Shown: one piece after another, positions 1,159 to 51,805 of the stretch
Layout of the letters: each line of letters starts with the position of its first letter
Numbering within the stretch: position 1 is the stretch's first letter
From: Epinephelus fuscoguttatus
Lineage: Eukaryota > Chordata > Actinopteri > Perciformes > Serranidae
Reading direction: 5' to 3'
DNA length: 64,000 nucleotides
NCBI RefSeq assembly: GCF_011397635.1
Contig: NC_064767.1
Span: forward strand, 22,370,537 to 22,434,536
The notes under the pieces: model-generated
Database searches by the model: none
Told to the model about the DNA's origin: nothing
Seen by the model: only the letters and a program-made list of their open reading frames with translations
Position numbers and translations under genes: made by a program

Positions 1159-2513
1159 AGGCAAATCGTTCTCGATGAGGCTGAGGATAACGTCAGTGCA
1201 GATGAAAACTCCTGTACGTCCGATGCCGGCGCTGCAGTGCACAGTGACTGGTCCCTTGTGGTGCACCGCCCTCAGGTAGCGGATGAAACGAACCAGCTGC
1301 TCTGAGCTTTTGGGCACTCCGTGGTCAGGCCAGTGTGTGAACTTCAGGTGACGGACGAAATGGGTCTCACCGGTCTGCAACAACAATAAGTTTAAGAATT
1401 GTTCCAGTAAACCACAATATTAATGCCTTTATAGGAAGACACAAATCTCTTACCTCTGCCTCCACCATGCGGATGATCTTGATGTGGAAGTGCTCCAGGT
1501 ACTGCTGGTTCTCCAGGTGAAGCTGGTACCTGCCGGTGTCCAGAGGCACGCTCAGCCTCTCTGGCCAGTACTTGTGACATTTGATCCTTCCCCGTTCTAC
1601 TTCCTGAGTCATCATGGCAATGACGTCGGATTTGTTCTCCCAGATCATCTGCCAGAAGGCTGGCACTGTGGAAGGCAGAGGGCCCTGACAGGAGATGTAG
1701 AAGAACTGTTCATCGCCTACTTGCATGCGGATGTAGCTGGCGTTGATGTAGTCCTGGTTGTCTCCAATGGCAACACGGGTTTCATCGTCTATGTAGGAAA
1801 AAAAAGAGAGGAAATACCTAAACTTTCTGTGTGTGTGCATGCATCACTGCTTTAATTCATAACTGAAATGAACTAATTACAGCAGCGTCCTCCAACAAAG
1901 ACCACATGCAGACATTCCTTACGTTTTCTAGGTGCTGGATAAATCCATTCATGCCTTGATCATAAACAACAAACACTGCTACCTTGTTGTTCTGCCAAAA
2001 GCATGCAATCTAAGTGTACAGTAAATAAAGCCAAGTAAACAGCTCTGAGGTCTGGAGTCGGGCTCAACAAACCAGCGCTGTGAAGAAGTTTGTCGGTGAT
2101 GAGAGGGGTGATAGACCGAAGGCAGTCAGGAATGTTTTCTGGGTTGGTCCCCCACCTCCTGCTCGTGAGGTCAAAAAAGCCACAGACTGGAAACCAGACT
2201 TTCTAAATAAAATAGTTAAAGGCTACAAGCAAAGGGTCAGATTGGTCAAAAACATGATCGTCTTTTTCGGGACCTTTGCACAACCAGCAACAAGGCATTG
2301 GTGAGGTGTGGCAGCAACCAGCTGGGGGTCACTATCCTTTTCATCATGCTCATTTATTTTAACTCTGACCCTTTTCATCCTGACACACTGAGGGCTAGAG
2401 AAGTAAACACTTCTGTATGTGTGTACTTGAGTGTGTCTATTTTACAGCTTTTTCACATTCTTCAGTATCATCAGTGTTAACCACAGAGCCAGCATCACAC
2501 CCCAGGGTGCGTG

Positions 2514-2562
<49 letters not shown>

Positions 2563-3163: not shown

Positions 3164-6100
3164 CTGAAATCACCAACACGAGCATAGTAACAAAAAGAAA
3201 ATGGTAACACTTAAAATAGTGCAGCTGGATTATTGTATGTCTGTCCATAAAAATAGTCTAAAACTGCAGTGTTTTAATAATCACAGTATGGATGTGTGTA
3301 TCTGTCTACACCGCTAATTTTCTCTCAGTGTGTCAAAGTGTAGTAAATTATAATAAACTCCTCTGTACAGTTCTTATTGCAGGATCAATGTGGTAAACAG
3401 TTAAATGGCACATTAACTGGTCAACATGTAATTTTACCATATGTTAGAGCTGTCAATGATAACTTTTATTAAAATAACTTTTAGTCATATTTGCTGAAAG
3501 TGTCACTACATCCAGACTGCAGTGCATGAGACAGATAATCTGTAAAAAAAAAAAAATCATGTTGCTCCTCCATCTCGTAGTGCTTCTTATGGCATGTGAA
3601 AGATCCACCGCGGCTGAATGAAAACAACCAATCAGCTGTGTTAGAGAGTCTCTAACGCAGTTGTCAATCATGTCAGTCACTGCTCGTAAACTGTGGTCAA
3701 CTGTCAAACTAGGCAGCGCTGCTTAGCTGTAAAATGTGAAAGTTTGTGACCCTACTGTCATGTTAAAAACAGTCAAGCCAAAACCAAACACCGCCCACCG
3801 GCTGAAGCAAACGTTCTCATTTTACAGCTAAACAGTACACTAAAATATGTTTCTGTGTAAAGTATTAAATAGCTACATATTCAAAACCTCTGTATTTAAA
3901 AATAGAGCATATCTTTTTGGGAAAACCTCCAGCTACTCTTAGTCAAGAAGAAAAATACCTATTCAGAATCTTGAGAATGACAGCATTAAAACAGATAAAA
4001 AAAGCTGACCCACCAGATGTAATAAAATGGAAAAGTATGATTGAAGAGGTAAAGTTCATGGAGAAAGTGACTCACAAAATAAGGAATAGGGAGGATGTGC
4101 TTGAGGAAAGGTGGCTTATAGAGGATGGGAGAATGCAACGATGCTGTCATTGTATTCAATGTATAAAAATGTGTACAGTTATGAGATATTAGTTAGCCCA
4201 CATATTTTTTTAACGATTTAGTTATTAATTTTTTTCCTTTTTTTCCTGTATCGTTATTATACTGTGAATGTATTGGTTGTTTATATCTTTCATATTTTCC
4301 TTTTCACCGACTGATTTTTATTTTTTACAATAAATTGTAAACTAAAAAGCAAATAAGGTGTGTTTCTAAATGGGTGATGGATTCTTGCACATACCATTAG
4401 GAACACTACAAGGGGGGCGTCAGTGGCTTAGTGGATAGAGCAGGCGCCCCAAATACAAGGCTGGCTCTCTCCCCCCTTCACACTTGTCTGTCCTATCAAT
4501 TAAAGGCTAAAGTGCCCCAAAAAATATCTTAAAAGAAACACTACAAGGCAGAGAAACACGATTTTTTTCACTGTCTCGTGTACTGCTGTCTGGATATAGT
4601 GACAGTTTCAGCAAATACGACAAAAACTTATTTTTATAAAAGTTACCTGCCATACCTTGAAGGCAGTTTTACAACTATGAACTAACTATTTTGTCCACAA
4701 CACATACACACCATGAACTCTTTGACCAGTTCCTGCTGGTCGAGTTGATGCTGCAGAATCTGGATGAGAGCTTTGACCCTGGAGCCTGAGTATTGGCTGG
4801 TCTTAGAGGGACTAATAAGAGCTAAACTGGTCAGTTCCTCCTCTGACACTATAGGTGGGCCTGAGGAAACAAGAGAAGAGGATAAGAGTAGCTAGTATGG
4901 CTCAGTATGGATGCAATTTTCCTTCTGACACATCAGCATAGAGGTAAAGGAATAGACACCTGTTTGGGGTGAGGTCATTTCCCAACTGGTGGCCTCAAAT
5001 ACGTCATCTTCCTCTTCGCTGCTCCAGCCGTCTGACTGGGTTTTCCGGATGTCTTTGCAGGACTGGTCCAAAAGTTTGGTCACAATTTGTTTCCTGGGGG
5101 AGTCAGGGGGCAGGGGTGAGACCAGACCATTTTTACTCTTCGGTAGGAGCGGCTGAAATCATGCAAGGCTGAGCTTCCTTTCCCTGCGACTTTTCCACCT
5201 AAAATACAGTATAGACAAAAGGCTAAAATATTTTCTACCGTACTTCTTGTTCCGAGGCTACAGAGAATAAAACTAAACACTTCCTAACTGTTAAACTAAT
5301 TTTGTCTCACTGGGGTTCACGGCCCTTAAGCAACAACACTTCTCCCAGGGTGGTGTTTTATTTATTACTCTCTGCTGCCTCCTTGTGGCCACAACACTGG
5401 AATTCCAGCAGACCAAAACAAAAGAAGAAGCAGCAGGAGAAGGAGGTGGAGAAGGGAGGAAGAGGGAGGATATAAGTAGACAATAAAAGAGGAGAGTAGT
5501 TTGGGAAGTTACTACCTGTCAGTAGCTCCATGCAACATGTCAGTGACATTGAGGGATGGGCAGCAAGCTTGATGAGATGGGGTGCTGTTACAGCTCTCCT
5601 GTTCCACAGACAGACAGCCAGAGGATGCAACAGACAGAAGGAGCAAGATGTTAGTAGTAGAGGTTAGTAAAGAGGTAAGGAGGGGTAAGTTGACAGAAGT
5701 TTACATCATGTACTTGTGTATGTATGCTTTTTAGTGTGCATGTTACCTGTATCGCAGTGTCATCTGTTACAACAGTCAATCGCCGTGGTGGAGGAGGCGG
5801 TGAGGTGATGCACACGCCAGCTGGATTGACCACAGGATCCGAAGTTGCCTCTGAGACAAAGATAGAAAGACACATATATTTAGTAAGGGCCGTTCCTGAG
5901 TCCAAGTCTTTATAAGCCAGTTGTAGGTCAAAATGCAAAGTCTTTGAATGCATTTAAAGGTCCAGTGTGTAGGATTTAGGGAGATATATTGGCAGGAATT
6001 AAATACAATATGATACGTATGTTTTCTTTAGTGTATAATCACCTGGAAATAAAAATGGTGGTATATTTATTACCTCAGAATGAGATGTTTATATCTTCAT

Positions 6101-9100
6101 AGGGTAATTGTTTGGTGATTAATCAGATCAAAACTTAAAATATGTCAACCCTTTTGCCAAGTTTCAAGTAATATTAATAGCACATGCACAGCCCTGTATT
6201 TCAATACTGTTATCCTTCAAAAAATGCATTGTCAAAGGAAAGACAGTTGTACCAGGGGGGCGTTCAACCGGCTTATTCAGCATGACGTCAGGTGAGGAGC
6301 AGGCATCAGGGCTGGACACCGGAGCTGGCTGCTCGGCTAAAATAGCCTCAGTCTGAGCAGACATGTTGGGCAGTGTAGGTGACTCGGAGTAGGTCAGGGG
6401 CAGGATGTCTCTGCAGATGGTGAGCTGTACAGTGCCCTCAGCTTTACGCAGGATATCCACCACCTTACTGTGGCTGAGCCCGGACACGATCACACCGTTT
6501 ACCTAGAGTACACACAGTGAGGATTAGGTTTTTTCCCCCCATGAAGGTTATAATAAAACAGTCAAGATGTCATAGATGTGTGATAGGTTGTCACCTCTAA
6601 TAGAATATCTCCCACTCTGAGCCGACCGTCCTGCTCAGCTACTCCACCAGAGCAGATTTCCTTCACTCTGAGCATGCTGCCATTGGTTCCCCCGATCAAA
6701 GCAAAGCCAAGGCCTCCTCCGTCTGGTTTTGTGAACTCCACCTGCATGATGCAACTCTAAAGGGACAAGAGGAGAAAAGGGCAAGAGAGAAACTTTGAGG
6801 TCAGTTTCTGTCAGTTTTACTCCAGCGTATTACAGGAAAACTTTGTGTTCTGCAGGAAAAAAATGCCTCTCTATTGTTAAAGCATGAATCAGGTGTAAAA
6901 AAAAAAAAAAAAAAAAGCCTGACAGATATACACACATGCAGACAGTGACCCCCAGGAGAGAATGCATTCGCAGATTGACACACAGTAGACTCAAGTTACA
7001 GTGTGTGTTTCAACACTTCAAAAGATGTGCAGGTAAAGAGAAAGAATACACAGAGCGAGCAAGAGGCGATAAAAATAAAGGGGTACACGAGAAACAAATA
7101 GCTTTTGGACAAAGATGAATATTATGTTTGGAAACTTACATCATGTTCTTGTGCGATAGAGAGACATCTGAAATTTCCACCGGTCCTACACACAGCTTCA
7201 ACTGAAAAAACGAGAAGAGTCATCAGTGAATCAGCAGCCACTGCAGACACAACAACTCCAGTTATTGCATAACAAATTATATCCTCAATTAATATTGATC
7301 AAGCCTTTAAAAGCGATGTGCAAGCTAAATAAGAGGAAACGTCTGGAGTTCGGCACTAAGCTTCCCTTCTGTACCAATTTCCATCCATGCAGCCATTTTC
7401 AGCCAATGAAATTTCCGAAACAGACACGCAGAAAAAAACACACCAACCTCCCACCTCTTCGGCCATTTTGAAAGAGAAGTGTTGATTGGTACGTCTCTTC
7501 TATGACAGGTGAACAAGGCTGATCTTTTCAGACTGACCCTCTCCACTGTCCCTTACTGCTGCATACACCGTCACCAGGCAACTGAGCTACCTGCCCTGTG
7601 GACCACTGGCTGTATGGCACTGTGTGTGTGAGTGTGTGTGTACGATGGCTACAGCCCTGCAGTCCAATACACCAGTGGAGGGCCTGAGGCTTGCTAATTA
7701 TTAATCCTGCTGTGAGAGCCCAGGATCTGTCTGTCAGCATTCAGATCACACACACACACACGGACACACACACACACGGAGCTGCAAAGAGAACTATCTT
7801 TCAGCACCGAGCTCCGGCTTCACGCAGACAAAGGCGCAACAAGCAAAACGGTGAAAGGGAACCAGTTATGGCGCTGAAAGAACATGCGAGAGTCCGGAGG
7901 AGAAGAAACTTACCATCTTCAGTAGGAGAGACTTTCTCTGGAGAGACGGGCTCTTCGAAACGAGCGAAGAACTTCCTGTCCTTTTTCCAGTCAAACAGAC
8001 CTACAAGAGAAAAACTTGTTTATAAATGTATATAATTATTTTATGTAACACATGCTCAATCTAAAAAAAAAAAAAAAAAATATCACTAATTACGTGTCTT
8101 CCCAGAACTCAGAACACTTTCTGGTAATGATTGAACTTCTCATCATTGTCAGTTGAGCACAAACATATCTGGTTTCTAAGCAATCCATCAGTGCATATAA
8201 TAACCTAACCCCCCCCCTGTTTATGGTCCTTGTGTTAACTCAAGCAGGTGAACCATCCCATAAATCCTTCAGAGGCCCTTACCGTTCCACTTCGCCTTGG
8301 GGGTCACCGGCTGGTCTTCTCTGTGACAGACAAACAGTAAAGTCATTCAAAGAGACAAACCTATTTCAGTGTCTATCTTTCAAGCCTATGATGGCACCTA
8401 CCTGATGATTTTGAGCTTAACTTTACGAGGGGCGATCTCACAGGCTTTCACTGCATCCTCCAGGGACATTCCCAGGGTGCACCTGCCACAGATGTAGAGG
8501 ATCTTGTCATTGGGTTGGACGCTGCCCTCCTCGCTGGCTGGGGAGCCTGGCACCACCTCCAGACAGTAGATGCCCTGCCATTTGCTGCCAATGCCTCCTG
8601 TCAGCTTTATACCTGGAGAGCACACACACACATATATTAGATACGATCAGATAATAATGGTGATGTATGTGTGTCTTTAAAATGTGTACCCAGCTGTCCT
8701 GAAGCTGTCTTGTAGAGAACTACATCAGGCAGGCTGTCACAGGAAGGCGGGGCCACCAGGTTGGTAACTGCCCTCCCCAGGGTCATATTCAATCGTCTCG
8801 GGGATGACCTGAGAATTGTCATGGCAACATCATCTGCCACACTGGTAACATCATGTCCATTTACCTAGAAACAAATGACAAAGAACGAATCCCTTACAGC
8901 ACATACTCTAACGAACGTTTAAAAACGTGCAGAAATGTAACCAGATGTGTGTGTTTGTGCGCACTGTGATGAGCCTGTCTCCGGCCCTGAGTCGTCCGTC
9001 TGCCTTGGCTGGGTTGTCCAGTATTTCCTGTATGTAGTAGCAGTTGTCAAGCTTGCTTCGAGAGATGGTGAACCCAAAGCTTCCACTCCTGGACTTGGTC

Positions 9101-12100
9101 AGGACCACTGTCAGCTCAAACTCTTTAACAAATGCCTGACAGGAAAGAAGCAATGATCTTTTATCTTTTGAACAGCTACAGAAATTCTCCAAATAATTTT
9201 AACACCAATGCATCATTTTCATCACTTCATGTTTAAACCTAAACACTTCGTCATAACACTCTAGAAAGAGCAAGAGAGTGTAAGATCACTAACTATGGTA
9301 TAACAATGGTGAAACATATTTTAGGGGAGGCACTACAGTTTAATAGAGTAAAACTTTTAACTAATAGATATCGCAATCAAACTTACCCAGTTCATTACTA
9401 ACACTGAACAATTATTTTTTGTCTTACAACTATTCTGGAATGTTATGTTTAAATATGCAAATAACATATTATCTAATTAAATCTGTGCTAATTTGCATAA
9501 ATTTCCAGAACAAAAATCTGAACACTGGATAAAACCAGGTTCAAAATTATTTTTTAATCTGTTGACATATTAGAGTCAAAGGTTTTCAAAGATGGAATTT
9601 TGTATATCTCTTTTTATCATTATGATACTGTCGACAGTCATACAAAAAAATCAATTTTCACCATATTTTTAGGAATAAAATGTTATATAAAATGATATAT
9701 GAGCAAACCACTCGATAAAAACATTCAGAATAGAGATAGGAACTAAATTGGAAGGTTTGGTGTATGTAAGTGCTACTGACGTGGAGATTTCTGACTCAGA
9801 AAATGAGAATAAAAAATTAATTTTGAAAAAATGGACCTTAGAGATATGTATTGTAAAATTCATTACATTTTTTAGATAAAAAATAAAACTCTACAGGTGA
9901 TTAGGGTAAAGGTTATAACTAAATGTCACAATGAAACTTCCCCAGTTGATTAATTATTTGTTTCACTAAATTTAAAGTGTTTTGTTTAAATTATCACGTA
10001 ATGCATTATCTAACTAAGTATGAGCTTTTTGCATACATTTCTAAAACAGAAATCTGAACTAATATAAACTCCTAAATGTGTATTTTGTATTATTTTCTTT
10101 CTACCAGTCTGAAATAAGACATGTTATGGAACCCTGTTCAATAATGAATTGTTAGTGGTGTGTCAATAAACATGTTGCATGTAAAAAAGACAAAGGAAAT
10201 GTCCTGATAAATATTTTAAATAGATTTTTTTGATGTGCAAAATGTACGCAAAGTGTAGTATCTAGTAGTAACCAGCTAACTTTGGTAACTGGTTCATTGA
10301 GCCAAACCCTGAATATTTTCACCAAACTTTATGGAAATGTTTTCTGCTGGGATAATAATTTACGGGAGTAAAAAAGTATTTTTTGATGAAAGTAAAAGGA
10401 GCCAAGAACACAAAACATCCTGAATGTACCTTTCTTCGACTCTCCTCCTCATCCTCTTCATCCTCGTCATCATCATCATCCTTGTATTCCCTTTCTTTCT
10501 TCTCTGGTTCTTCCCTCAGCGGTGTGTGGCTCTGGGCAGCAGGGGGCAGCACTGTGGGTGACAGCGTCAGGGCAGGTGGACTGGCACAGGGAGGCACAGA
10601 GGGCACGACCTGGGCTGTGATGGGGGTCACTGGCGGAGGAGGAGGCTGGGGTGGAGGCACCAAAGGCCTACTGTTCTTGGCCATGGCTTTGTAGTGACTT
10701 GGGAGAAGCCCCTGCTGGATCGGGTGGTGCTTGGCTTTCGGTGGCTGGGTTGTGAGCGGCAGGGATGGGTGGGCCAGGGAGCAAGTGGTTGGAGTGTCAG
10801 ACGATAAACCGAGAGGCGTGATGGTAGTAGTGGGGACGTGGGGGCCGAGGCTTGGATTCTGAGAGCTGAGACTAGAGGAGCTGTTGGAGGTTTGAGAGTG
10901 GAGGCCTGGGAGGTTGGTTGCTGGAGTGTGACTGGGCAGACTGGAGGGAAGGCTGTGAGGAGGCTCCAGTGTGGAGCTGATGGTCAGGTACTCTTCATCT
11001 GCCATGATAGTCAGTCCATTTCCCATCAGGCAGTAGGTCACACTTCCATCTGCCTCCTCTCTGACTCCACTACAGATAAACAGACATTACATAATGTATA
11101 TACAGCACATACAATACGATTCTATCTCAAGAATGTAGGATTTAAATTTGCTGTAATGTAATATGTAACACTTTTAATATATTACCTTGCATATACAGAG
11201 TTTGAACCAGGCTTAGGACAGGCATCCATGAGCATCACAGTTGAGCTCGGTGTCGTTACGACCTCCTCTTCCCCTTCCTTGCTCTTCTTTCCTTCTACTT
11301 CCTGTTGTTCCTCTGGGTTCGCAGTGGTTGGTAGTGACTCTGCTGGAGCCGTAGGAGAGCCACAGGCAGGTGTGCCAGCTGATGCTGGAGAGGCAGGTGA
11401 GGCCGGCGAGACTGGTGACGGAGGTGATGTAGGTGAGGTGGGCGACGGGGGTGAGCGAGGAGGAGATGGGAGTGTCTGGTTGGCCTGCGCTTCCCTCTCC
11501 GGACTCTCCTGGGGGTCCGGGAGTGCTGGAGCTGGAGGAGGTTCTGGGCTTTTCTCGGCTGTGTTTGTTAGATCTTCCTCATGGGTGGGGGGCTGCTTCT
11601 GGGCAGATATTTTGGAATCATACTGAAACTTAAGGAGCTGGCTGTAGTCTTCTCCTAGTCTGATATCCAGGGACCGAGATCGAACCTCACGGAAGGATGC
11701 AGGACTCTACAGAGTTAGAAATGAGGTCAGTCAGGATTACTGGGTCAAACGTAGGTGACTGTTTCTTTTTAAATGTGCCTTTACTTGCATGCAAGTGAGC
11801 TTACCAGTGTGTTGTCATCTGCATCATACAGCACTCCAGGACTTGGCCGGCAGATCAGCAGATGAACTTCAGATGGAGCTCCACGCAGCAGGAACAAAAC
11901 CCTCTGAAACAACACCAGAAGAAAAAGGTCATTGTAACTCCCTGGCAGTACACAAAAGATTAAATGACACATCAAACACCATGACACAACCAGCTTGCTA
12001 TTTTTGGTGGTATTAAAGGATTAGTGCAGCAATGACGTGGCTGAGATCTTAAGAAAGGGCAAAGCCACTGGTGCTGCTCTTACACTCACCAGCCCATTCA

Positions 12101-14766: not shown

Positions 14767-14816
<50 letters not shown>

Positions 14817-17800
14817 CCTCCCCAGTCTTCTTCAGGCACTCGACAGCTTGATGGTGAGTCACTCCCCTCAGGTTGGACCCATCAACCTCCAGCAGTCTGT
14901 CACCTGTCATATGCACAAACACAAATCTCATCATCATTAGCAACATCAATACATAAACGGTTCGAGTGTATGTGTGTGTGTGTGTGTTTGTGTGTGTACA
15001 AGTGGTTGACGGGCATGTCAACAAATCTAAAAGTCGTTCCTGCTCACTGAAGCGTGAACCAAGCAGAGACAGACAGAGACACAGCACGGTGGCCTCAGTG
15101 GAAAACTCACATCCATACAAGTTTTAGAGCTTTTATCTTATGAAGCCTGGTTCAATACACATTCAGTTATTTAGTATTTAGTTTAAGGAAGTTGACAATC
15201 TCCCCCAAGCTAACAAAAAGGGTGACGTATTTCACAATTTTTTCATCATATCTTTTGATGATTATGCAAAGGGAATAGTAAATTTGTCATTCAAAATAAA
15301 CCACTTCAAAAGAAAAAACTTCGAGACTAGTCACTACTTAATCAGAAGTTGAGTAAACATAACCTTTATTGAACATTTTGTGTTTTTGGCAGCCACCTGA
15401 CCACATATCGAAATGACAAATAAAAAGATTACCAATCTGAATCCGTCCATCCTGCTCTGCAGCTCCTCCGAGCACCAGACTCTTGATGTAGATGCCTCCA
15501 TATCTAACATTGGTGTTCATTCCTCCCTTTTGGCAAGAGAGACAAGTAATGAGTCAATGTCTCGGGCCTCAGATAACCTTGGAAACGTACACTGACTCAG
15601 CATAGAGTTACTGTGCACCGTAGCTTGTTACATTTATCGGATTTATTCCAGGACTCTTATTTTAGACTGCATTAGCCTTTAGCTTGGTGTGCCTAATAAT
15701 CTGGCAACTGAGTGCATGAGGTAATGCTGTGTAACCAAAGGAAAGCAATTCACTCACAGCAACACTGATGCCAAGACTACCATTGCTTTTCTTCAGCTCT
15801 ACCACAAACCGCTCCTCAGTTTTCAAACTGATGACAGATGGGGATCTGGAACATGCATCCTGAAACAGAGGAACAAAGAGGTAAAAACTGTTTGAGATTC
15901 TTTATCACATTAATCAGAGCACTTAATCCATTTGACAGTTAGCACTGGTTGAACTCTTTTATCAGCTTTGACCTCATGATCATGACAACAAAAACCCTTA
16001 TCTCTAACCTGAGCGTCATGTATTCGCACAACAGGAATGTGAAGCCTCCTGCTCTGTTTTGGGGTTGCCATGTTGGACAGATTGATGGCCTCCTCCAGCT
16101 CCTCCACGACAGGACGGTACTCAATGCCGCTCAGCGTGGTCTGCGACCCAAAGCTCCTCTCCAATGCCAAACCCAGAGTGCTTTGACTCAAGGAGCTCTT
16201 GCTGTCCTTCAGAGACTCTGATAGGAAAACAGCCAGGTGGGATAATGCATCTCAGTATGCATATAGGCTGAATCTGAGACTGTGCATGTAGAGAAGAAAG
16301 CATTAAGCAGATCTTACGTTTAGGCTGGGACACAATGAGCTCCACCTCATCAGGGCTGCTCTGTAAGATGGCAGCAGCATCACTGAATGTCACTCCTTCC
16401 AAACTCGTCTTGTTTAGAGAGATGAGACGTCCACCTGGAGAAAATAAAGTAATCATCACATAATCCTTGTCATAGGTTTCGCAGCCCAATTTTGTCTCCA
16501 GCAATGTCATGTTTCATGTTGAAGCCAGCGTCTATGTTTCCAGTTTCCATTGTTGGTACTTCGTACCAGGTTTGATTCGTCCATCTTTGTCCGCAGGCCC
16601 GTCAGGCACAATGGAAGCAATAAAGATCCCAAGGTCAAGTTTACCCGTATTGTCCTCGCCCACTATCACAAAGCCTGAAACAGGACCAGAGAAGGAAGTG
16701 AAGGCAAAAGTCTCCTGTAAACAATCAGATCCGTGCTCATTAATTTTACATTGAGTTCACAGCTAAGCCTGCCTTAATAAACTCACCGAAGCCCAGTTTG
16801 GGATCTTTCTTTAGGGTCACGCAGACTATCTCTCTCTCTGGTGGGGTCCTGGTTGGTGTATCAACTGCAAAGCACATCAGTTAAATGGGCCACTTATTTA
16901 TAAATACCTGGTTATTATGTTCAAGATCACAGGGGACAGGTCAGAAGTCTAGCAAAGGGTTAGGTCACATAAACAGGAAAACACATTCACACATATGGGT
17001 ATTTTCCCAGTGACACGTTTTTGGACTGTGGAGCCTCCAAAACACAGGGAAAATATTCTAACTTCTTTACACTATAGTTTTAACCAGTGAGCCACAATGC
17101 CATCCAAATCTGACCATACAGACAGGTGACAAATTAAAGAAAAAGCCTCCATAAATGGGTAGAGAGACAAAACAAATGCAGATGCAGAGTATGAAAATGT
17201 GAATCATATGTTTGGGCCTTCACAGTCAAGACATCTGAATACCAATGGAAGATTTTTGAGCAACATGTCAGACAGTGCTCTCGACAGTACCATAAATATC
17301 AAAATTCCAAATATCTTCTACGCCATGGATGATTAAAGCTACCCAGGAGGCTCATGGTGACTATACTCAGGGGCTGTGTAAACACAAAACAGCAAACATC
17401 CTATTTTTTGCATCTATTTGTTCTCCGACTGTCTTCATCATTCTGAAATCATAACATAACAAATGTTGAGGATGATGCTGCCTCTTAAAAAGAGGCAAAA
17501 TTTGTCTAATGTTACTATTTTGAAGATACATAACATAGGTAGGGTAAGAGTTTGGCATAAATAGCATCACTAATCTTGAAAACTATTTGTGTTATACTAT
17601 GCTTAAGTGGAGTTTCTGCTACATCAAAATCCATGTCATAATAATCTGGGTTGCTCTGACTGCAAATCAAGGCTCCCCGAGTAAATGTGGTCTTCATTAA
17701 CTGTATATAAGGCCAACAGAAGAGCAATTATCCAATTATATACCATAAAGATGTTGATTTCTTCTTTAATTTGTCACCCCTCTGTGTGTGTTCACAAAAA

Positions 17801-20800
17801 AGTAGGCATATTCACCTCGTATGGAGGAAGAGGCGTCTGAGTCCTGCTTCTGTAGCGACACACTGGACATCATTCTGGGAATCGGCTCTGGAGTGCTACA
17901 ACACATGTGCACAGTCGCATTACATAGCTGTTTCCTTGATGTTAACATAGACTGTGATTTTGTATGATGAATATGTTAATAGCATCACAGACTACCTCCA
18001 GCACTGTTGCTCTTTCATGTCCCTGGGGTCTCCTGTTTCAGTGAGCTCCTTGTTCAGTTCTCTGCTCATCTCCCTCCTCATCTCCCTCTGCTGGCGCAGC
18101 CTCGCCTCCAGTTTGGCAGTCAGGTTGTCACAGGACTTGGAGAGGGAGTCTGGCTGACCGGGTGCTAAACCGACGTGGTTCAGCATGCCCTCTGAGCAGG
18201 ACATCCGCTTCAGGTTCAAATTACGACCCCGATAGACATCCATGTTTTCATCTGGAGAAACAGATGTGATATTTATTCTCTATCCTGTTTGACTAAAACC
18301 TTTGTGAGCTTTCTTTTAATGGGCATCAGTGTTCGTCTGGCATTCTGACAAAGTATTAACTCTACATTATCACTAAAACATGCCCACCTGGTATCATGGT
18401 GTGGTTTAGCTGTCGTGACGTCATCTCACTGTGAAACTTGTGCTGTGCCGAGCAGAGGTTCAAGAGGTACTGTGCTATTTTTGAGCTCTCTGTTACAAAA
18501 GTGTGCTTTTTCCCGCTGGGCCCTCCACACTCTATGATCAGCTTACGCCGCTAAAAGGCAGACAGAAGTTAATGTTCATTTACCCTGAGCTTTGTAACAA
18601 AATAATCTGCACAAAGTGATACCTCATTTAGCAAAATCTGACTGAATGGCACTTTACCCCAGTGGATATGGTGTCGGTCTCCCTCCAGAGGAAGCGTCTG
18701 GTGACAGTGCGGAGGTGGTTCTTCATCTCGTACACAATGATTCCTTTGGAACAGACCCCAAAAACCAGCTCTCCCACAACTGGCCTTTTCTCTCTCCCCA
18801 CACGGTGGAACATGACCCCATACTCTGATAACTGCTGGGCAATCTGAGTGGGACATCATTTTACAGTTTAAATTGTAGCCATTTATTTTAACAGTCATTT
18901 AGACTTAAAAGAAGTGGGACAGTATCATTAAACATGTGTGAGTGGATAAACTGGTAGTCTGGATACCTTAAGATACTCTGTTTCTGCCTCTTCGGGCAAC
19001 ATCTGGGCATGACTTGCATGTAGTCTTGGCAACTCCTCCTTGACGTTGGGCAGGGCCAGCTTCTCTAGCATCCTCTTAGACACATAATGCTCTGGCTGGT
19101 AGTAATTTTTACCGTACAGCTGAAAAGACACACAATAGAACCAACTGCTATAACACACTGAGAGATGATGCTGGTATCTACAGACGTAAGGTGAATATTT
19201 TTCATTTTGCCCTAGGTACCTCTGGCATGTAATCCCCAAACTCAGCCTGCAGAGCAAGAGCAGCCAGAAACAAGCCTGTCTCTTCATTACAGTATAGCCT
19301 GTCCTCCAAGATATCCTTACGCAGCTGTAAGTAGTACTGGTGACGGGTCAGTCTGTGCCTAGGAGACAAAAACATTAAGTTACGCTTTTTTAAACAATGT
19401 AATACTGTAAATGAATTTTCTACATATCAGGTAAAGCTGCGGTGTGTAGGATTTAGTGACATCTAATGCTGAAGTTGCGGAACTGAAACTTTCCTGTGTG
19501 TCAAATGTGTAGAACTACAGAGGCTGAGAGGAAATGTGAATGACCCAATCTAGACCCAGTGCTCCCAGAGTACATGGGAGGAAACTCTCTTCAGATGAAG
19601 ACATAAACGGCTCATTCTAAGGTTACGAAAACACATCAATTCTTAATTTCAGGGGCCGTATTCACAAAGCTTCCTAGTGCTAAAAGTTTCAGTAGTGATG
19701 AAATTCTAAGAAAATTCTTAGAACTGTGACGTTTTCTTAGAATTTCCCCTTAAAGTTAAGACTAGGTCCTTGTAAAGATAAAAGTTATTCTCATCTTAGT
19801 CCTCAAAAGAGTGCCTAAGGTGAAAAACTGTTAGGAGCAGGCAGGAGGACTTTTAAGAGGTTTAAGAGTTTTTCATTTAGAGGAGAAAATGGTGGAAAGA
19901 CAGAGGTATGATAAATATTCTCCAACTCTGCATGACAGTGAGTAAATGAATAAATAAATGCCACATATTAGATCGTGCAGGGATAAATTTGTGGTCGATC
20001 TCATTAGGAGTATGCACATATTTCCCCACCTAACTCAATAATGTCATAACGCCAGAAATAAAATGATCGCAATACTAAGATATTTGAAAAACTGGAAAAA
20101 TGCAACAGTGCAGCAGTGATGACTTGTGTCTGTCTCAACCTTCCATCAGCTGAGTGATCACACTAACAATGACAACACTTTCACAGTCAGCAGTTCATTT
20201 CATTTCCACTGGGTGTCCACATCTTACAGGCTCACTAAAGGGTGTGTCTGTGACAACCAATCACATTTGGTAAAAAAATACGTCAAACCTAGCAACACGG
20301 TCAACTACACCTCCTCACTAAGATACAGGTTTCTGTCCCTTCCTCGCTCAGAGTTGCTCAGAGAACTTTCCTAAATCGCTCCTAAGCTCTCTGAGAGTAT
20401 TCTCAGTTTATGAATACAGCCCCAGGTGTTTACATACTAATAAAATCATAGATATGAATATTATATTCACAACATTTCTGCCCATAGAGGACCCCAAAAT
20501 CTACACACTGGACATTCAAACACCAGCACTGTACTTACAAAATGAAGGACATATCATCAACAAAAAATTTGACTCGAAGAAACACCAAAAAGGATAACGT
20601 CTGCCCTTTTTTCCAACTGTCAGGCGCAACTTTGGAGATTTTTGTTTCATGGTCCAAAAAGAAATATTCATCATCTGCAGAATGAGAAAGAAAAGCAAGG
20701 GTGTAAAATCACAAGTTGGACTATTAATATTTTGAAATCAATTTATATTTTGGATGCTGCAATGTGATTTAAAATCAGTGCATCCTGATAGGTTAGGCCC

Positions 20801-21012
20801 CATATTACATGTCACTCTTACCGTCTAAAAAGGCAAGGCCAAAGTAGAAGTGTTCCACCAAGTTTGCGTGAGCCACCACCATGTCGAACACATCTCTCCC
20901 TTTGGACTTAATGTCACAACGAACCACCACGTACTGTCCGTTAGGCAGCACTATAGTCACTTCTCTCTGAGATGAACATGAACGGCCCTTCCTGGACTGT
21001 GGCAGACACACA

Positions 21013-21058
<46 letters not shown>

Positions 21059-24000
21059 CATAAAAACAGACAGACATGCTCACATGCATGCACGTAAATA
21101 TACAAATACTGTGCATGCCAATATGCAAACAGACAAAGTTTAGCATGCAAGAAAAGACAAATTCAAATAGAGTGAAAACACAGCAGCTTACATTTACGCT
21201 GAGCCGAAGCAGATGAGATGGAAAGAACTTACCACAATAGATCCTGGAAGCTCGAGAACGATGTGCTGTTCGTCTGGCATTCTGACAAATTCAGGACCCA
21301 AAGCCTGATAAAACAATAAACTCTTTAAGCAGCAACACATCCAACTGACTTTGGTGCTTCTTTAAACGCTCTGCTGTGTGCTCTCAACTAAATACTGTAT
21401 ACCACCCTCTCCATGATACTGTGGCAAAGCTGCTCGTAGTACAGATACACAACACACACCTTTAGCTAATGTTCTACAAAACATTTCCCTTGCATTTATG
21501 CCACTAAACATACATTTTTAAAAATCCCCGATCTTACCTTAGCCTTCCTCTGGCTCAGGCTGAGCGAGGACTCACTGAAGGTAATGGAAGGACTGTGAGA
21601 CCTGCCGGATGTCTTGGGAGAGATGTCGTGGAGGGGGCTCCTACCAAGCCAACTGCAGTTGCTGTCCCTGTGACGGACCCCACGAGGGAGTCTGAGGGAG
21701 AGAGAGAGGGAGCGGGGAAGGACAGGTTGTGTAATAGTTGTGCGGACAAGTTGGAAAAGTCAAACTCCGAGACAATGTCATGTCCCTCTCAAAGTCACTG
21801 CAGACAATGAAGGAGCACGAAAGGAGGAGGATTTATTTGTGTTGACAAGCATGCAAAGCTAGGTCTAATAGTTGAAGAATCTTTTTCCTGACTGCAGTAT
21901 TAGTGGTGATGATGTGTGTGCATGCATTCATATAGCTCATACCTGTCTAAAGAAGATTGATACAACGGTGTGGGAGAGCTCCTCGGTCTTTGTCTCCACG
22001 GTCTCTGAGGTAAACTCCCTATAAAACAGACATAAAAGAGCACTTGCTTTGTCACAACAGGCATCTCACTGCTGGAAAACACATTAAAGAAAAGCTAGTG
22101 ATGAATTCTGCATCTGCACACCAATGTTAAGGATTTTGACAGTAGGTCAGAATTCCTGCTTTCTACCATATGACTTCTTTTTCAATACCTGACTTTGAGT
22201 CTGAGTCCGTTGAGTATCTTCTCCCTTCAGGACTGCCTTCGCTGAAGTCTGAATGTGGCCCTCTCTTTCCTGTCAACCAGGTAAGAAATGAAAGATGACA
22301 GCAATGTATGATTCCTGTCCGTCTCTGCTCTGGGCTCCCAGGAGACTCTGAGACGTTGGGACAGAAATGAGGCTAGCGGAGGGTTTAGCCTGAAAGCATC
22401 CACGCTCTGTATTTGATTATTGGCTCTCACTGGAGCCTAATCCGGGGGTTTGCTTTAGGTTAAGATTTTAATCCTGTTTATCCACAGAACCTATTTTACA
22501 CCACAAAGACTCCATAAGATAAATGAATCCATTTCAGATCTTTGCTGTAGATGCAAAACTGAGACAAGTAATCACTCACATGTTCTGGAAATGTAATAAA
22601 TTAAACATTAATGGGGTTCAATATTGGAGATTCTTAAAAAGGTTACTGGGTTTGAGATTCCCTTTTAACCTAAACTAGCTTTAAAAAGCGACAGATCTGA
22701 CATTCCTCTTCCCAGAAAAAAAACAAGGTGTGGTTTATCAAAGTGGCCATGACTGCTGGTAATGAATGTATTGTTTATTTATAGAAAAGTGCAGATCCTC
22801 CCCCATCTCCATGTGGCTTAAAGAAATTTGCTCATACACGGCATCAGAAAAAAATATGTTCAATCATAAAAGGAAACCACGTCTTTGATAAATGCTGGTC
22901 TTGTTTAGGAGCTGCATGGAAATATTTCAGTCTTTGTGGGTTGATGACAGGATATGTATGACATATGCATCTGTGTAGACATATAGCCTAGTTGGATTTC
23001 TGTGTATCAGTGTGTGTATATTTCGTTGTTGTGTGGGGATGGGGTGCGGGGCTGGTCTTGTGGGATTATTACATTATTGTATTTTCTTTATCTTTGATAT
23101 TTCAACTCAGCGTTTTCTCCTGCAGACTGCACTGTTAGAGGGAAAAAAATCAATAAGTTGTATAAAATAAATCCTTTTAATCTTGTGGGCCTGTGTACCA
23201 TCTTGAGTCAAAATAGCAATGACTGAAAATACACACTGTAAATATGTTCACATAGGGTCAAAGGTCAGCTTGATTTATGATGTCAAAATGAATAGGAGCA
23301 ATATGATACTCCCCTACAAAACACATATTTTATTTTTGCCACAAAATCCCAGACATTTTAAATCAGCTGCATTTAAAACTTAAGACACAGTTCTGATTTT
23401 TTGAAGTGGGTTTGTACGGGGGATTCAGTCATAGTCAGTGTATCGCATACAGCAGATGTCAGTCGGCACGCCGCCCATTTGGAGAAGCAGGCCGGAGTCC
23501 AACATGGACACTAAGCAATGTACTGCTGTTGATGGTTCAGCAACAAAACATATTATAGCCACCCAAAAAAGTCCCACCTAAAAAAATCAGTATCAGTTTC
23601 AATGTGTGTCATATTGAGAGTATTTTTAGTTCTTTAAATTTTTGTAAGACAGCCCATTCTGACAGGAAAGCTGTCAACGGCTTCAGTTCCCCATCTATAC
23701 TCTTGTCAAAGCCACCAGACTTCAAAACTTCAAAAAATCTGAAGTATCGCTTTACTGATGCATAGGTCATTAATACAAGATCTGCATGTTTGTCAAAGGC
23801 CCTTTTTCCTGTTTATTTCATGCTGATGTTCAGCAAGATTTCATGTCTGCTTTATCCTCTGTTATGTGATGGTTTGGCTGTATTTATAGCCCAGCTTGTT
23901 TAATAAGACTCTAGTTTATCAGGACTCTAACATGTATGCTCACCATGAAGTCTCTCTCTTATCATCTGGCTCCTGCCACTCAAAGGGACGTGACTGTCTG

Positions 24001-26292
24001 GCAGAGAGCCATGATCCATCTGGAGGAAAAGAAACCCCTACCACGGTCAGTATGCAGATTGTGCTTTAAAAATTGTGACACATGTACAATGAAATGGCCT
24101 GCAGAGAAGCTAAGAAGCTTACAGACAGGTACATGCTGTAGATATATATCTAGACTCACTGATTCATGAAAAACCTCCTCCACCAGCTGTTGGATCACTT
24201 TAGTGGGCAATGGCAGGATGGTGGCTTTATGCTGAGATTCACAGGCCTCCAGGATGGAGTTGAGGGTCACCCTGCGGTGGGCCAGGTCCTCACACATGCT
24301 GAGCAGGAGGCTGTTTAGATGGTCACTCAACTGGACTGGCTGAGTGATGAGAGTGGAAAGTCATTACAATAGCTGCGGTGCGAGAGTGTGATGATACTGA
24401 ATCAAAAATGACAGCATTGTATCAGAGGCTCCCACCTGATTTTGAGGTAGGTGAAAATCAACTGACCAGTAGAGAGTCATACCCAGTGAATACACCAGCA
24501 TCTGTGCAACAAAATGAAATGGTTAATGACAAGATGGGTTGGACTTACCAACCAAATCTCACCATAACTAAACCACCTAACTGAGCGTCAATCATTACCA
24601 TTGCATAAACAGAAATTATACAAACTACATGTGGGATTTGGGATTTAAAATGCATGACTAAGCTGACACACAACACCTTGGGGTCGAGCAAGACAGCCAT
24701 ATGCTAAATTATATATCATCTGATAAAATGAAAGGGAATGGACATAGGACACAATAATCAAATTATGATGAAAAACTTAATTAATAATATGTCTTCACTT
24801 TTTTCTTCTTTCAAATAATTTACAGAGGTTGTCTTAAGAATTTCTAAACAAACAATCTAAGCATAATTTAAAGGAGCTCTGCATGATATTTAGAACGTAG
24901 GTTGTCTGTACACAGCTCTCAACATGGAGGTGGCTGTGCTGGCGGCTAGCAGCTAACAGTGCTAACAGTGACAACAGAGCTGACTGTGGTTGAACTGCAG
25001 GGCCGGCGGTACTCTTCTGCAACAACGCCACCCCAATATCAATTGTAACTACCGTATGAGTGCAGGGTAGAATGGCAGTGTTTAGCTAGCCATTGGGATA
25101 CACACACAAGAGTCACATGCACTTAAATGCACGCACGTTTAAACCATCTAACTACAGCAACTTCAGTCTCTGCTCAGGATTCCATCACTCCACTGTTTTC
25201 TTCTTCTTCTTTCATAACAAATGGTTGTTTGCTGCTATTTTAATACTCTGAATATCATATTGAGCTCCTTTAATATGTCAATCATGTAAAATACTCTTTG
25301 AACAGACTAAATAAAAGCAACAATGGTTTTGATTTACATAATGGCTGAGGATACAGCATGTTGTTTTGTACTATGCAGGGAGTGACAATTCCTGCTGCTT
25401 TCAAACACTACCATAAGACACATTGTGATAGGGGATATGAAGCATTTATTAAGTCAGATTACTTATGCCCTAAACTTAATTTGTTTATTTATGAGTTACT
25501 TCAGAGTCTTTTCAGCTCAATGTTAATAAATCAGGGCTTTAAGTGCAAACTTCAGAGCAGTTGTTCCTTTGCTCAGCCACTAGATGGCGTGCTGGCACCT
25601 CAGTCGTCCTTCAACTCTTGACATCCTGAGATTTTACACTCCAAGGAAAGAGACACATGAGGAAATGACTGCAGAGTTTAAAGTTACAGATAATATATAT
25701 TTTTAAAAAGGGCAAAATGAACTAATACTATTCAGTGTTCTGCCATCAATGTCCATGTATAGCTGTTAGGACAGGTCTGAGGATGTATGCACTGACCCTC
25801 TCTATGGCAGGTTTGGTTGAGCTGGCACGGCCCTGCAGCATCTCTGGAGCAGTGAAGGTGGATACCTCATCTGATAGGCCACAATTCTTAAATGCTAAGG
25901 TACCAGTGGCTGACAGCAGCAAGGAGGTGGGGCTTATGATGTTACACATATTGTTGTGACCTGAAAAAAAAAGTGGGAAGTCAGTAATATGTATGATGAT
26001 GCTGCTGCTGATACATTTCTATAGTAAAGTCAGAGTGAAACAGAAATACTGCAGGATACATTCACGTATTTGTTACATGTACACTGCAGGCACATAACAG
26101 TATGGTGATAGCATTAAGACAGGATGAATGTGCACCTACAATAGAGGAGGTTATCTAAAATGCTTTACCCTCATAAGAGACATCCACTAAAGACTCTGCA
26201 GTGCCCAGCAGCAGGGACCAGACCTCTTCCTCCAGCAGAGGTCCCCCTCGTGCCTCCAGTACTTCAGCTAATGTAACAAATGTGCTGCTCAT
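1159..26292 (-). CDS. ptpn20: KIND-FERM-6xPDZ-PTP tyrosine phosphatase (unsplit FRMPD2/PTPN20 type), 3' end off window
   Basis: This is a cytoplasmic, membrane-cortex scaffold phosphatase. I traced 44 coding exons on the minus strand, from ATG 26292-26290 to the donor after 1159, with splice phases that agree at every join except across one unresolved KIND-FERM linker exon. Order: KIND (26292-24160), linker (22269-21538), FERM (21304-18388), PDZ1, PDZ2, PDZ3, a Pro/Ser-rich and acidic linker, PDZ4, PDZ5, PDZ6, then the PTP domain. The traced exons encode about 2,300 residues. The KIND-to-PDZ3 part matches human FRMPD2 most closely (for example [12 protein letters not shown] and LLRGAP.EV.LLICRP), and the PTP matches human PTPN20 (TG.TH.V..L.FT.WPDHG). 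PTPN13 has the same overall plan but five PDZ domains. Flanking mapk8 and arhgap22 support the 10q11-type locus. The final PTP exon with the Q-loop is beyond the left edge. The gene name is inferred from similarity and linkage. Confidence 0.88.
2517..2561. repeat. (CA)n microsatellite
   Basis: A near-perfect CA dinucleotide run of about 45 bases in the intron between the first two PTP exons. Confidence 0.98.
3905..4341 (+). mobile_element. 3' tail of an L1/Tx1-like LINE
   Basis: An open frame (3917-4192) encodes the far C-terminus of a LINE reverse transcriptase: SQEEKYLF, then [20 protein letters not shown], the typical W...M..EV..ME..T helix after the RT domain. A stop follows, then an A/T-rich 3' region ending with AATAAA at about 4330. 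The 5' part is absent, as usual for truncated LINE copies. Confidence 0.6.
4414..4536 (+). mobile_element. tRNA-derived SINE with internal deletion and target duplication
   Basis: The head GGCTTAGTGGATAGAGCAGG is an RNA polymerase III A-box of a tRNA-derived SINE. The tail, with CACACTTGTCTGTCCTATC and AATTAAAGGCTAAAGTGCCC, is that of a SINE family widespread in percomorph fish. The B-box segment between them is missing, so the copy is internally deleted. It is flanked by a 12-bp direct repeat AACACTACAAGG at 4402-4413 and 4537-4548, which defines the insertion. This is not a functional tRNA gene. Confidence 0.85.
4712..5850 (-). CDS. ptpn20: Pre-PTP linker exons of ptpn20
   Basis: Exons 5850-5747 (Pro-rich, [12 protein letters not shown]), 5198-5137, 5093-4960 (acidic, [17 protein letters not shown]) and 4860-4712 ([14 protein letters not shown], then a helix [18 protein letters not shown] that precedes the PTP fold as in PTPN13). 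Exon 5198-5137 is a phase-based call: it has a clean acceptor and a weak GTAAAA donor, is 62 nt long, and is the only length found here that restores frame between 5747 and 5093. It implies an intron of 43 nt. The other three exons are well supported. Confidence 0.8.
5954..6135 (+). repeat. Partial copy of the GGTCCAGTGTGTAGGATTTA element
   Basis: It starts TTTAAAGGTCCAGTGTGTAG and continues with the GGAGATATATTGGCAG and ATAATCACCTGGAAATAA segments found also at 12369, 19437, 60797 and 61437. Only the first third is present. It lies in an intron of ptpn20. Confidence 0.75.
6253..6756 (-). CDS. ptpn20: PDZ6 exons of ptpn20
   Basis: Exon 6756-6595 carries the first half of a PDZ domain with a GLGFALIGG carboxylate-binding loop and [18 protein letters not shown]. 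Exon 6502-6253 completes it ([20 protein letters not shown], then EGTVQLTI) and runs into a Ser/Pro-rich tail. The split after GDILLE at phase 0 is typical of PDZ genes. It is the sixth PDZ counted from the N-terminus. Confidence 0.93.
7140..8320 (-). CDS. ptpn20: Short linker exons between PDZ5 and PDZ6
   Basis: Three small exons: 8320-8283 (38 nt, [13 protein letters not shown]), 8000-7914 (87 nt, [20 protein letters not shown]) and 7201-7140 (62 nt, [20 protein letters not shown]). Each has good AG and GT borders and their phases (2, 1, 1, ending 0) fit the neighbours exactly. There is no recognisable domain. The sequence is basic, then mixed, and probably an unfolded tether. Confidence 0.82.
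7749..7777. repeat. (CA)n microsatellite
   Basis: Two short CA runs separated by a CGGA interruption, intronic. Confidence 0.9.
8402..9135 (-). CDS. ptpn20: PDZ4 and PDZ5 exons of ptpn20
   Basis: Exon 9135-8965 gives the first half of PDZ4 ([33 protein letters not shown]) and exon 8864-8690 its second half ([19 protein letters not shown]). That exon then begins PDZ5 ([13 protein letters not shown]), completed in exon 8612-8402 ([52 protein letters not shown]). PDZ5 has QLGI in place of the canonical GLGF, so its ligand preference may differ. All phases agree (0, 0, 1, 2). Confidence 0.92.
9295..10100. repeat. Two diverged copies of an A/T-rich interspersed repeat
   Basis: About 9330-9560 and 9890-10080 are related in direct orientation. 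Both contain AACTTMCCCAGTT-type, TTAAATATGCAAAT-type and CAGAA.AAATCTGAAC-type segments in the same order. The A/T-rich intron 9136-10429 holds these copies and no exon I can see. Confidence 0.6.
10430..11706 (-). CDS. ptpn20: Long Pro/Ser-rich and acidic linker exons of ptpn20
   Basis: Two large exons, 11706-11186 (521 nt) and 11069-10430 (640 nt), together 387 codons in one open frame. The first starts [20 protein letters not shown] and passes into repeated SP, PSP and TSP units. The second is rich in Ser, Thr and Pro, has a run of nine Pro residues broken by one Gln, and ends in an acidic stretch ([17 protein letters not shown]) before RRK at the donor. This is predicted to be disordered. 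The many Ser-Pro and Thr-Pro pairs are candidate sites for proline-directed kinases. It separates the FRMPD2-like half (to PDZ3) from the PDZ4-PTP half, which is where the split occurred in mammals. Confidence 0.85.
11805..13664 (-). CDS. ptpn20: PDZ3 exons of ptpn20
   Basis: Exon 13664-13453 (212 nt) holds [36 protein letters not shown] and [19 protein letters not shown]. Exon 11903-11805 (99 nt) finishes the domain with [20 protein letters not shown]. The match to the third PDZ of FRMPD2 is close. The intron between them, 11904-13452, contains two nested repeats, one of which ends about 15 bases from the donor of exon 13664-13453. Confidence 0.93.
12369..13437 (+). mobile_element. Inverted-repeat element carrying a second nested element
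   Basis: The outer element starts AAGGTCCAGTTTTTAGGATT at 12369 and resumes near 13315, ending CCACTAAATCCGAGACACTG and CTCTTTTAA at 13437. Between about 12700 and 13313 sits a different repeat (CTTAAAGTTAAGACTAGGTC to CTCACTAAGATAAAGG), which also occurs at 19652-20423. The outer end is about 15 bases from the 5' splice site of the PDZ3 exon 13664-13453. Confidence 0.75.
14172..15859 (-). CDS. ptpn20: PDZ2 exons and following linker of ptpn20
   Basis: Exons 15859-15758 ([17 protein letters not shown]), 15526-15433 ([20 protein letters not shown]), 14903-14818 ([20 protein letters not shown]) and 14343-14172 ([18 protein letters not shown], then a linker). The domain matches the second PDZ of FRMPD2, including YGGIY.KS and the LLEVDG turn. 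The donor of exon 14903-14818 lies directly against a long (TG)n tract. Confidence 0.92.
14748..14817. repeat. (TG)n microsatellite against a splice donor
   Basis: A long TG run that on the minus strand begins right after the donor of the PDZ2 exon ending at 14818 (GAG|GTATACACACAC). A second run lies at 14968-14998. Confidence 0.97.
16009..18251 (-). CDS. ptpn20: Post-FERM linker, PDZ1 and following linker of ptpn20
   Basis: Linker exons 18251-17996 (a charged helix region with [20 protein letters not shown], probably coiled coil) and 17895-17816 (Ser-rich). PDZ1 is in exons 16864-16787 ([17 protein letters not shown]), 16674-16567 ([33 protein letters not shown]) and 16434-16318 ([30 protein letters not shown]). 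Linker exon 16217-16009 follows. The KDP.LGFG..I wording is that of FRMPD2 PDZ1. Phases are continuous (1, 2, 1, 1, 1, 1, 0). Confidence 0.92.
18388..21304 (-). CDS. ptpn20: FERM domain exons of ptpn20
   Basis: Seven exons, about 341 codons: 21304-21233 ([10 protein letters not shown]), 20996-20822 ([29 protein letters not shown]), 20674-20539 ([20 protein letters not shown]), 19358-19220 ([32 protein letters not shown]), 19119-18967 ([19 protein letters not shown]), 18843-18658 ([31 protein letters not shown]) and 18550-18388 ([30 protein letters not shown]). All three FERM lobes are present. FERM domains bind membrane lipids and the tails of membrane proteins, placing this phosphatase at the cell cortex. 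Confidence 0.95.
19437..20518 (-). mobile_element. Reverse-orientation copy of the GTGTAGGATTTA element, host for a nested element
   Basis: The outer copy is in inverse orientation: it starts GTGTGTAGGATTTAGTGACA and ends CTACACACTGGACATTC at 20518. It is interrupted by a 772-bp element at 19652-20423. Its right end is only 12 bases from the donor (20538-20531) of the FERM exon 20674-20539. Confidence 0.75.
19652..20423 (+). mobile_element. 772-bp non-autonomous DNA element with 17-bp inverted ends
   Basis: The left end GGGGCCGTATTCACAAA and the inverted right end GGGGCTGTATTCATAAA match at 15 of 17 bases. The interior matches 12700-13313 at high similarity, which shows a mobile family. There is no coding capacity. 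I could not fix a target duplication, so the superfamily is left open. Confidence 0.75.
21008..21055. repeat. (CA)n microsatellite upstream of a splice acceptor
   Basis: On the minus strand this is a (TG)n tract that ends about a dozen bases before the acceptor (GTCTGCCACAG) of the FERM exon 20996-20822. Confidence 0.97.
21538..22269 (-). CDS. ptpn20: KIND-FERM linker exons of ptpn20
   Basis: Three exons: 22269-22189 (81 nt, [20 protein letters not shown]), 22018-21943 (76 nt, [20 protein letters not shown]) and 21691-21538 (154 nt, [20 protein letters not shown]). They join each other and the FERM exons in phase 1, 2, 0. They are Arg/Ser/Pro-rich and probably disordered. The exon at 22269 must begin one base into a codon, whereas the KIND exon at 24160 ends on a codon boundary. 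So at least one more linker exon lies in 22270-24159; I could not settle it. Confidence 0.7.
22460..23105 (+). mobile_element. Decayed L1-like LINE ORF2 3' end
   Basis: Broken frames on the plus strand give [18 protein letters not shown], the cysteine/histidine motif of L1-type ORF2 tails, and further on [18 protein letters not shown], the usual C-terminal helix. Several stops and frameshifts separate them. It lies in the large intron region between the KIND and FERM exons of ptpn20. Confidence 0.65.
23395..23830 (+). repeat. Interspersed repeat shared with 43055-43652
   Basis: Shared segments include CATAGTCAGTGTAT and GCAGATGTCAGTCGGCACGC, followed by GGAGAAGCAGG, and the AAAAAATCAGTATCAGT motif further on. 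Both copies are intronic. Confidence 0.65.
24160..26292 (-). CDS. ptpn20: KIND domain exons and start codon of ptpn20
   Basis: Four exons sum to 534 nt (178 codons): 26292-26169 from the ATG ([35 protein letters not shown]), 25960-25797 ([22 protein letters not shown]), 24501-24436 ([20 protein letters not shown]) and 24339-24160 ([20 protein letters not shown]). KIND is a catalytically dead protein-kinase C-lobe fold used for protein binding. The APE-like APEML and the YSLGMTLYW helix correspond to kinase subdomains VIII and IX. The start was chosen because it aligns with the FRMPD2 N-terminus; an acceptor lies about 25 bases upstream, so untranslated exon(s) should exist further right. Confidence 0.92.
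24868..25273. mobile_element. Short inverted-repeat element
   Basis: The ends are TTAAAGGAGCTC and GAGCTCCTTTAA, perfect inverted repeats of 12 bases about 406 bp apart. The interior is non-coding. It lies in the KIND-region intron 24502-25796. Confidence 0.6.

Positions 26293-35070: not shown

Positions 35071-43931
<8,861 letters not shown>

Positions 43932-51757: not shown

Positions 51758-51805
<48 letters not shown>

Follow-up and report, generated by a model that had tools for sequence, protein, structure and literature searches.

Gene Organization

We identified a 42-exon coding chain on the minus strand of the window (the whole stretch of 64,000 nucleotides of Epinephelus fuscoguttatus DNA that was analyzed), which ran from 26292 to 1159 as a single open frame of 2,314 codons and contained no stops. 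All 42 donors were GT and all 41 acceptors were AG. The first coding exon of this gene, to which we refer as ptpn20/frmpd2, opened with an ATG at 26292, and a GT donor was present just past 1159. Both end points were exactly those given in a preliminary description of the locus, which had counted 44 exons rather than 42. KIND, FERM, PDZ repeats and PTP were present in one frame, as in full-length PTPN20, and Pfam matches bore out the proposed domain order of KIND, FERM, PDZ1-3, linker, PDZ4-5, PDZ6 and PTP. The structure and domains of ptpn20 and the genes adjacent to it in this E. fuscoguttatus window are listed in Table 1.

Table 1. Coordinates of the parts of the ptpn20/frmpd2 gene and of two neighboring genes.
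Feature	Position	Strand	Evidence
Exons 1-4: start codon and KIND	24042..26292	-	Pfam KIND 32.3 bits, cut-off 26.7
Exons 5-7: KIND-FERM linker	21538..22269	-	Ends partly hand-set for open frame
Exons 8-14: FERM, N, M and C lobes	18388..21304	-	Pfam FERM_N 66.9, FERM_M 81.6, FERM_C 60.7 bits; PDB FERM matches
Exons 15-16: post-FERM linker	17816..18251	-	Gene model
Exons 17-19: PDZ1	16318..16864	-	Pfam PDZ 49.8 bits
Exon 20: linker	16009..16217	-	Gene model
Exons 21-24: PDZ2	14172..15859	-	Pfam; PDB PTPN13 PDZ2 1vj6 107.1 bits, FRMPD2 5zds 98.8 bits
Exons 25-26: PDZ3	11805..13664	-	Pfam; PDB PTPN13 PDZ3 6gbd 117.0 bits
Exons 27-28: long Pro-rich, acidic linker at supposed FRMPD2/PTPN20 boundary	10430..11706	-	Gene model; shuffle test
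Exons 29-31: tandem PDZ4 and PDZ5, two weak donors	8402..9135	-	Two PDZ stretches in Pfam, 92.1 bits over the piece
Exons 32-34: short linker, exon 34 (7706-7591) doubtful	7591..8320	-	Gene model
Exons 35-36: PDZ6	6320..6756	-	Pfam PDZ 61.1 bits, E 1.4e-16
Exons 37-39: linker ahead of PTP	4712..5848	-	Gene model
Exons 40-42: PTP with WPDHG and a second, 10-residue motif (letters not shown)	1159..3163	-	Pfam Y_phosphatase 222.3 bits, profile 1-198 of 234
mapk8 (JNK1), in divergent orientation to ptpn20	34534..43908	+	Exons; C-terminal half MAPK8 > MAPK10
arhgap22-like PH-RhoGAP gene	46194..54102	-	PH 80.6, RhoGAP 94.7 bits

A homology-free automatic chain, based on codon usage and splice scores alone, consisted of 53 exons, 17 of which were not kept; 36 of the 42 model exons had both ends the same as in this chain. 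Exons 1, 4, 5, 7, 29 and 30 were placed by hand to hold the frame open, and exons 4 and 7 were also present in a stricter automatic chain of 29 exons, which was itself dropped because much of FERM, PDZ4 and other parts were missing from it. The single frame through KIND, FERM, PDZ and PTP claimed earlier was thus recovered, with a phase agreement that is partly by construction since six exons were hand-set. By a simple score, four of the 42 donors (15433, 8965, 8690 and 6320) and one of the 41 acceptors (17895) fell below zero, and two of these four weak donors were located at PDZ4 exons. Exon 34 is doubtful and was outscored by an alternative exon at 7201-7140. A six-frame motif scan of the 64-kb window for an exon with the PTP Q-loop gave no match, suggesting that the gene probably runs past the left edge and that its final PTP exon probably lies beyond it. 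Scans of the same window for tRNA genes and Rfam families also gave no matches.

Two kinds of repeats were observed within the gene. The donor at 14818 (minus strand, third PDZ2 exon) abuts a long CA-type repeat (GTATACACAC...), which could cause variable splicing there. A repeat of ~600 bases, probably a mobile element, occurred in introns in two copies (12690-13292 and 19731-20337), which were ~7.04 kb apart and 76-89% identical in pieces.

The Pfam search was carried out with five pieces, which covered the model apart from most of the two long linker exons (27 and 28) and apart from exons 34 and 37. KIND was a modest match. When the FERM part was compared with PDB sequences, radixin and merlin were at the top (~114 bits) and PTPN21 scored 89.7 bits; no PTPN13 chain was present among the 45 matches listed.

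PDZ Domains

PDZ stretches were distributed over the searched pieces as 1 + 2 + 2 + 1, giving six PDZ domains in the model versus five published, with PDZ6 (6756-6320) located between PDZ5 and PTP. The possibility that PDZ6 is a false exon of the gene finder was ruled out by its Pfam match (E 1.4e-16). For the piece with PDZ2 and PDZ3, the multi-PDZ protein DLG4 was the top PDB match (138.4 bits summed, at most 51 per domain), followed by PTPN13 PDZ3, PTPN13 PDZ2 and, lower, FRMPD2 (Table 1). For the PDZ4-5 piece, an InaD-like chain was first (61.1 bits) and FRMPD2 scored 35.4 bits, and the 35 matches listed included no PTPN13 chain. PDZ6 best matched multi-PDZ DLG4 (104.8 bits) and InaD-like (92.1 bits) chains among the best 60 of 227 matches. 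The idea that it is nearest to a PTPN13 PDZ domain was not upheld, as PTPN13 PDZ2 and PDZ3 scored 46.8 and 44.6 bits among the same best 60 of 227.

The PDZ6 intron occupies the same alignment column and has the same phase (phase 0) as one of the PDZ4 introns; another intron position is common to PDZ1 and PDZ2, and a third to PDZ1 and PDZ5. This common intron is the sole sign of a PDZ4 origin. Within the protein, PDZ6 is 40% identical to PDZ2, 40% to PDZ3 and 31% to PDZ4, and the last value speaks against a recent PDZ4 copy. A histidine is typical of class I PDZ domains, and inspection of the alignment by eye placed a histidine of this type in two of the six domains, PDZ2 and PDZ6. We see an even chance that the protein has, in a complete sixth PDZ domain with a class I-type histidine and perhaps of PDZ4 descent, a partner-binding site next to PTP that is absent in PTPN13. 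If general in fishes, PDZ6 would represent one route of divergence between the two paralogues.

Identity of the Phosphatase Domain

The motif WPDHG was found at residue 2257 of the model and the second, 10-residue motif (letters not shown) at residue 2288. We take WPD and this second motif to be catalytic motifs of classical PTPs, and by these motifs the domain would belong to that class. Among the best 60 of 244 PDB matches to the PTP region, PTPN13 (1wch, residues 69-327 of 328) scored 285.4 bits, with a match extending upstream of the catalytic core, and the next single-domain chain was PTPN3 (202.5 bits). Three two-domain receptor PTP chains had higher summed scores than PTPN13 (289.4 to 294.2 bits), each amounting to ~140-151 bits per domain. 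The PTP region thus appears nearest to the PTPN13/PTPN20 pair, the score being unable to pick one of the two because these best 60 of 244 matches contain no PTPN20 chain. The only NCBIfam match of the PTP part, a weak one to XopH (21.3 bits versus a cut-off of 500), was dropped as a shared PTP motif. An open frame on the plus strand (451-702), immediately beyond exon 42, resembled a piece of a hAT-type transposase by eye; Pfam gave nothing for this frame at E 0.01.

Neighboring Genes and the PTPN13 Alternative

Over most of its length, the neighboring kinase matched one MAPK8 chain in PDB with 671.1 bits, and the next MAPK8 and the longest MAPK10 chains with ~649 bits. Its C-terminal 149 residues scored 284.1 bits with MAPK8 versus 263.8 bits with MAPK10 at near-equal coverage, and this difference of 20 bits makes mapk8 the better name. 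The arhgap22-like neighbor is known as a PH-RhoGAP type only, ARHGAP24 and ARHGAP25 not being told apart from it. DHHC palmitoyltransferase exons were also observed (62005-63307, minus strand; Pfam DHHC 90.8 bits for exon 63307-62956). Human ZDHHC16 is presumably not located beside ARHGAP22. A smelt BAC that carries ZDHHC16 as well as FRMPD2 and MAPK8 (PMC3499448) suggests that the DHHC gene is perhaps zdhhc16.

In human, a table row of deletions at 10q11.22-11.23 contains GDF10, PTPN20A, PTPN20B, FRMPD2, MAPK8 and ARHGAP22 (PMC7217839), and a row for 4q22 contains ARHGAP24, MAPK10 and PTPN13 (PMC1687196). The mapk8 and arhgap22-like neighbors agree with human 10q11.22, so that the gene appears to occupy the location tabulated for PTPN20, beside MAPK8 and ARHGAP22, rather than that of PTPN13 beside MAPK10 and ARHGAP24, the neighboring kinase being nearer to MAPK8.

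These neighbors bear on the possibility of a fish orthologue of PTPN13 itself, in which nothing would be joined relative to mammals. Within the pair, PTP, PDZ2 and PDZ3 did best match PTPN13 chains among the matches listed. However, the PTP score cannot choose when no PTPN20 chain occurs among those matches, and the KIND-FERM spacing is short as in FRMPD2, a feature we take to be an FRMPD2 trait. Moreover, the kinase is nearer to MAPK8, whereas PTPN13 is listed in print with MAPK10 (PMC1687196). We regard a PTPN13 orthologue as the most improbable reading of the locus. PDZ2 fits PTPN13 better than FRMPD2, and the best 60 of 244 matches to the PTP region include no chain of PTPN20, so that the assignment to PTPN20 and not PTPN13 rests on the neighbors and on the domain positions of FRMPD2.

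The Supposed FRMPD2/PTPN20 Boundary

Two linker exons occupy the supposed boundary (11706-11186 and 11060-10430; 521 and 631 bases, GC 0.56 and 0.58). Of the three sense frames of each, a single one was open, and all three antisense frames were closed. Any of three frames was open in 6 of 1000 dinucleotide shuffles of the former and 2 of 1000 of the latter, and the openness of these exons therefore exceeds chance. Together with their GT-AG borders, this supports the long linker exons described at the claimed mammalian split.

An unbroken frame across two such exons argues against two adjacent genes, frmpd2 (KIND to PDZ3) and ptpn20 (PDZ4 to PTP), which have their own promoters and were joined by gene prediction only. 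The separate listing of FRMPD2 and PTPN20 in human databases and the weak donors at PDZ4 would fit two genes, as would the poly(A)-like hexamers and TATA-like words in introns flanking the linker. However, the density of these hexamers in the boundary introns (6 in 3,066 bases, 1.96 per kb) did not exceed that of the remaining introns (30 in 15,126 bases, 1.98 per kb). In 500-base tiles of the first 30 kb, no CpG-rich tile was found before PDZ4, and a CpG ratio above 0.7 occurred only at 29001-29500, upstream of exon 1. In addition, joint transcripts have been published for both zebrafish and human. Van Eekelen et al. (2012) proposed that frmpd2 and ptpn20 are parts of one ptpn13-like transcript and demonstrated this in zebrafish embryos by RT-PCR and sequencing (PMC3335823). 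They also amplified and sequenced the joint FRMPD2-PTPN20 product of human HEK293 cells, and pointed to genes of the joint form in medaka and Tetraodon. We consider two separate genes very unlikely, though a shade less so than a PTPN13 orthologue.

These published transcripts mean that the joining was already known and that the contrast with mammals was overstated: the statement that mammals split the gene is not supported in that form, the shorter separate isoforms being compatible with a joint human transcript. PTP-only isoforms from earlier 5' RACE are compatible with the data of PMC3335823 according to its authors, and its Fig. 1 legend includes long transcripts and both short kinds in Fugu and Tetraodon. 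Accordingly, one locus may produce the long protein together with FRMPD2-like N-terminal and PTP-only forms through internal starts and ends, which is compatible with a full-length ptpn20 gene; no clear internal promoter was seen here in a scan limited to CpG, TATA-word and poly(A)-hexamer counts. Multiple products seem to us a real possibility, with a chance somewhat below even.

Proposed Identity, Function and Origin

We are highly confident that the gene is teleost full-length ptpn20 (also annotated frmpd2), a sister of PTPN13 that probably stems from an early duplicated block and most likely has a PTPN13-like role. One transcription unit would encode a cytosolic tyrosine phosphatase whose N-terminal KIND is followed by FERM, six PDZ domains and, at the C terminus, PTP. 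For E. fuscoguttatus, we infer its catalytic activity, partners, duplication history and expression. Most likely it would work as PTPN13 (PTP-BL) does, with FERM and PDZ domains tethering it to the cell cortex and presenting partners to the phosphatase by their C-terminal peptides. In zebrafish, knockdown caused defects of gastrulation movements that were rescued by dominant negative RhoA (PMC3335823), and full-length Ptpn20 may feed into RhoA control of these movements.

As a sister of PTPN13, ptpn20 would have arisen by an early vertebrate duplication of a block in which a JNK gene and an ARHGAP22/24-like gene accompanied a PTPN13-like gene. The 10q11 and 4q rows look like matching blocks, and the simplest history is thus the duplication of one block that contained a single PTPN13-like gene. 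PTPN13, with the same domain plan beside MAPK10 and ARHGAP24, likewise leads us to infer a single-gene ancestor, which was likely one PTPN13-like gene. Of the suggestion that fish keep a single ancestral gene, the PTPN13-like single gene itself is borne out by the frame, the domains and the zebrafish RT-PCR (PMC3335823), and its ancestral state is a probable extension of these data.

Our findings agree with the 2012 report, in which a single PTPN13-like phosphatase lies behind the two genes annotated in human, and a 2023 review describes FRMPD2 as the missing upper half of PTPN20 (PMC9900141). Databases that separate FRMPD2 and PTPN20 could misread function and variants. As the joining has been known since 2012, the only small surprise at this locus is the sixth PDZ domain.

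Comparison with Known Relatives

The closest known system is the full-length PTPN20 of zebrafish and human (PMC3335823), which has the same joining of frmpd2 and ptpn20 and the same KIND, FERM, PDZ and PTP domains. It differs in the count of PDZ domains, five being given for full-length Ptpn20 in that report versus six in the E. fuscoguttatus model. Titles and abstract openings of the literature found tell of no full-length PTPN20 with six PDZ domains. We regard the difference as variation or as undercounting in the literature, and not as a defining feature.

PTPN13 (PTP-BL, PTP-BAS) has the same domain order and provided the best single-domain match to PTP (best 60 of 244), as well as the best match of PTPN13/FRMPD2 type to PDZ2 and PDZ3 among the matches listed. 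It differs in its human location with MAPK10 and ARHGAP24, and five PDZ domains are reported for it (PMC1687196, PMC9900141).

The smelt BAC JQ514278 (PMC3499448) contains FRMPD2, MAPK8 and ZDHHC16, and the syntenic region to which it belongs also includes ARHGAP22. It likewise represents a teleost FRMPD2 with MAPK8, and exons near the 3' end that resemble earlier ones were reported in it. These FRMPD2-like exons were annotated there as a possible local duplication and not as extra PDZ domains of one gene, and they may be the same thing as PDZ6.
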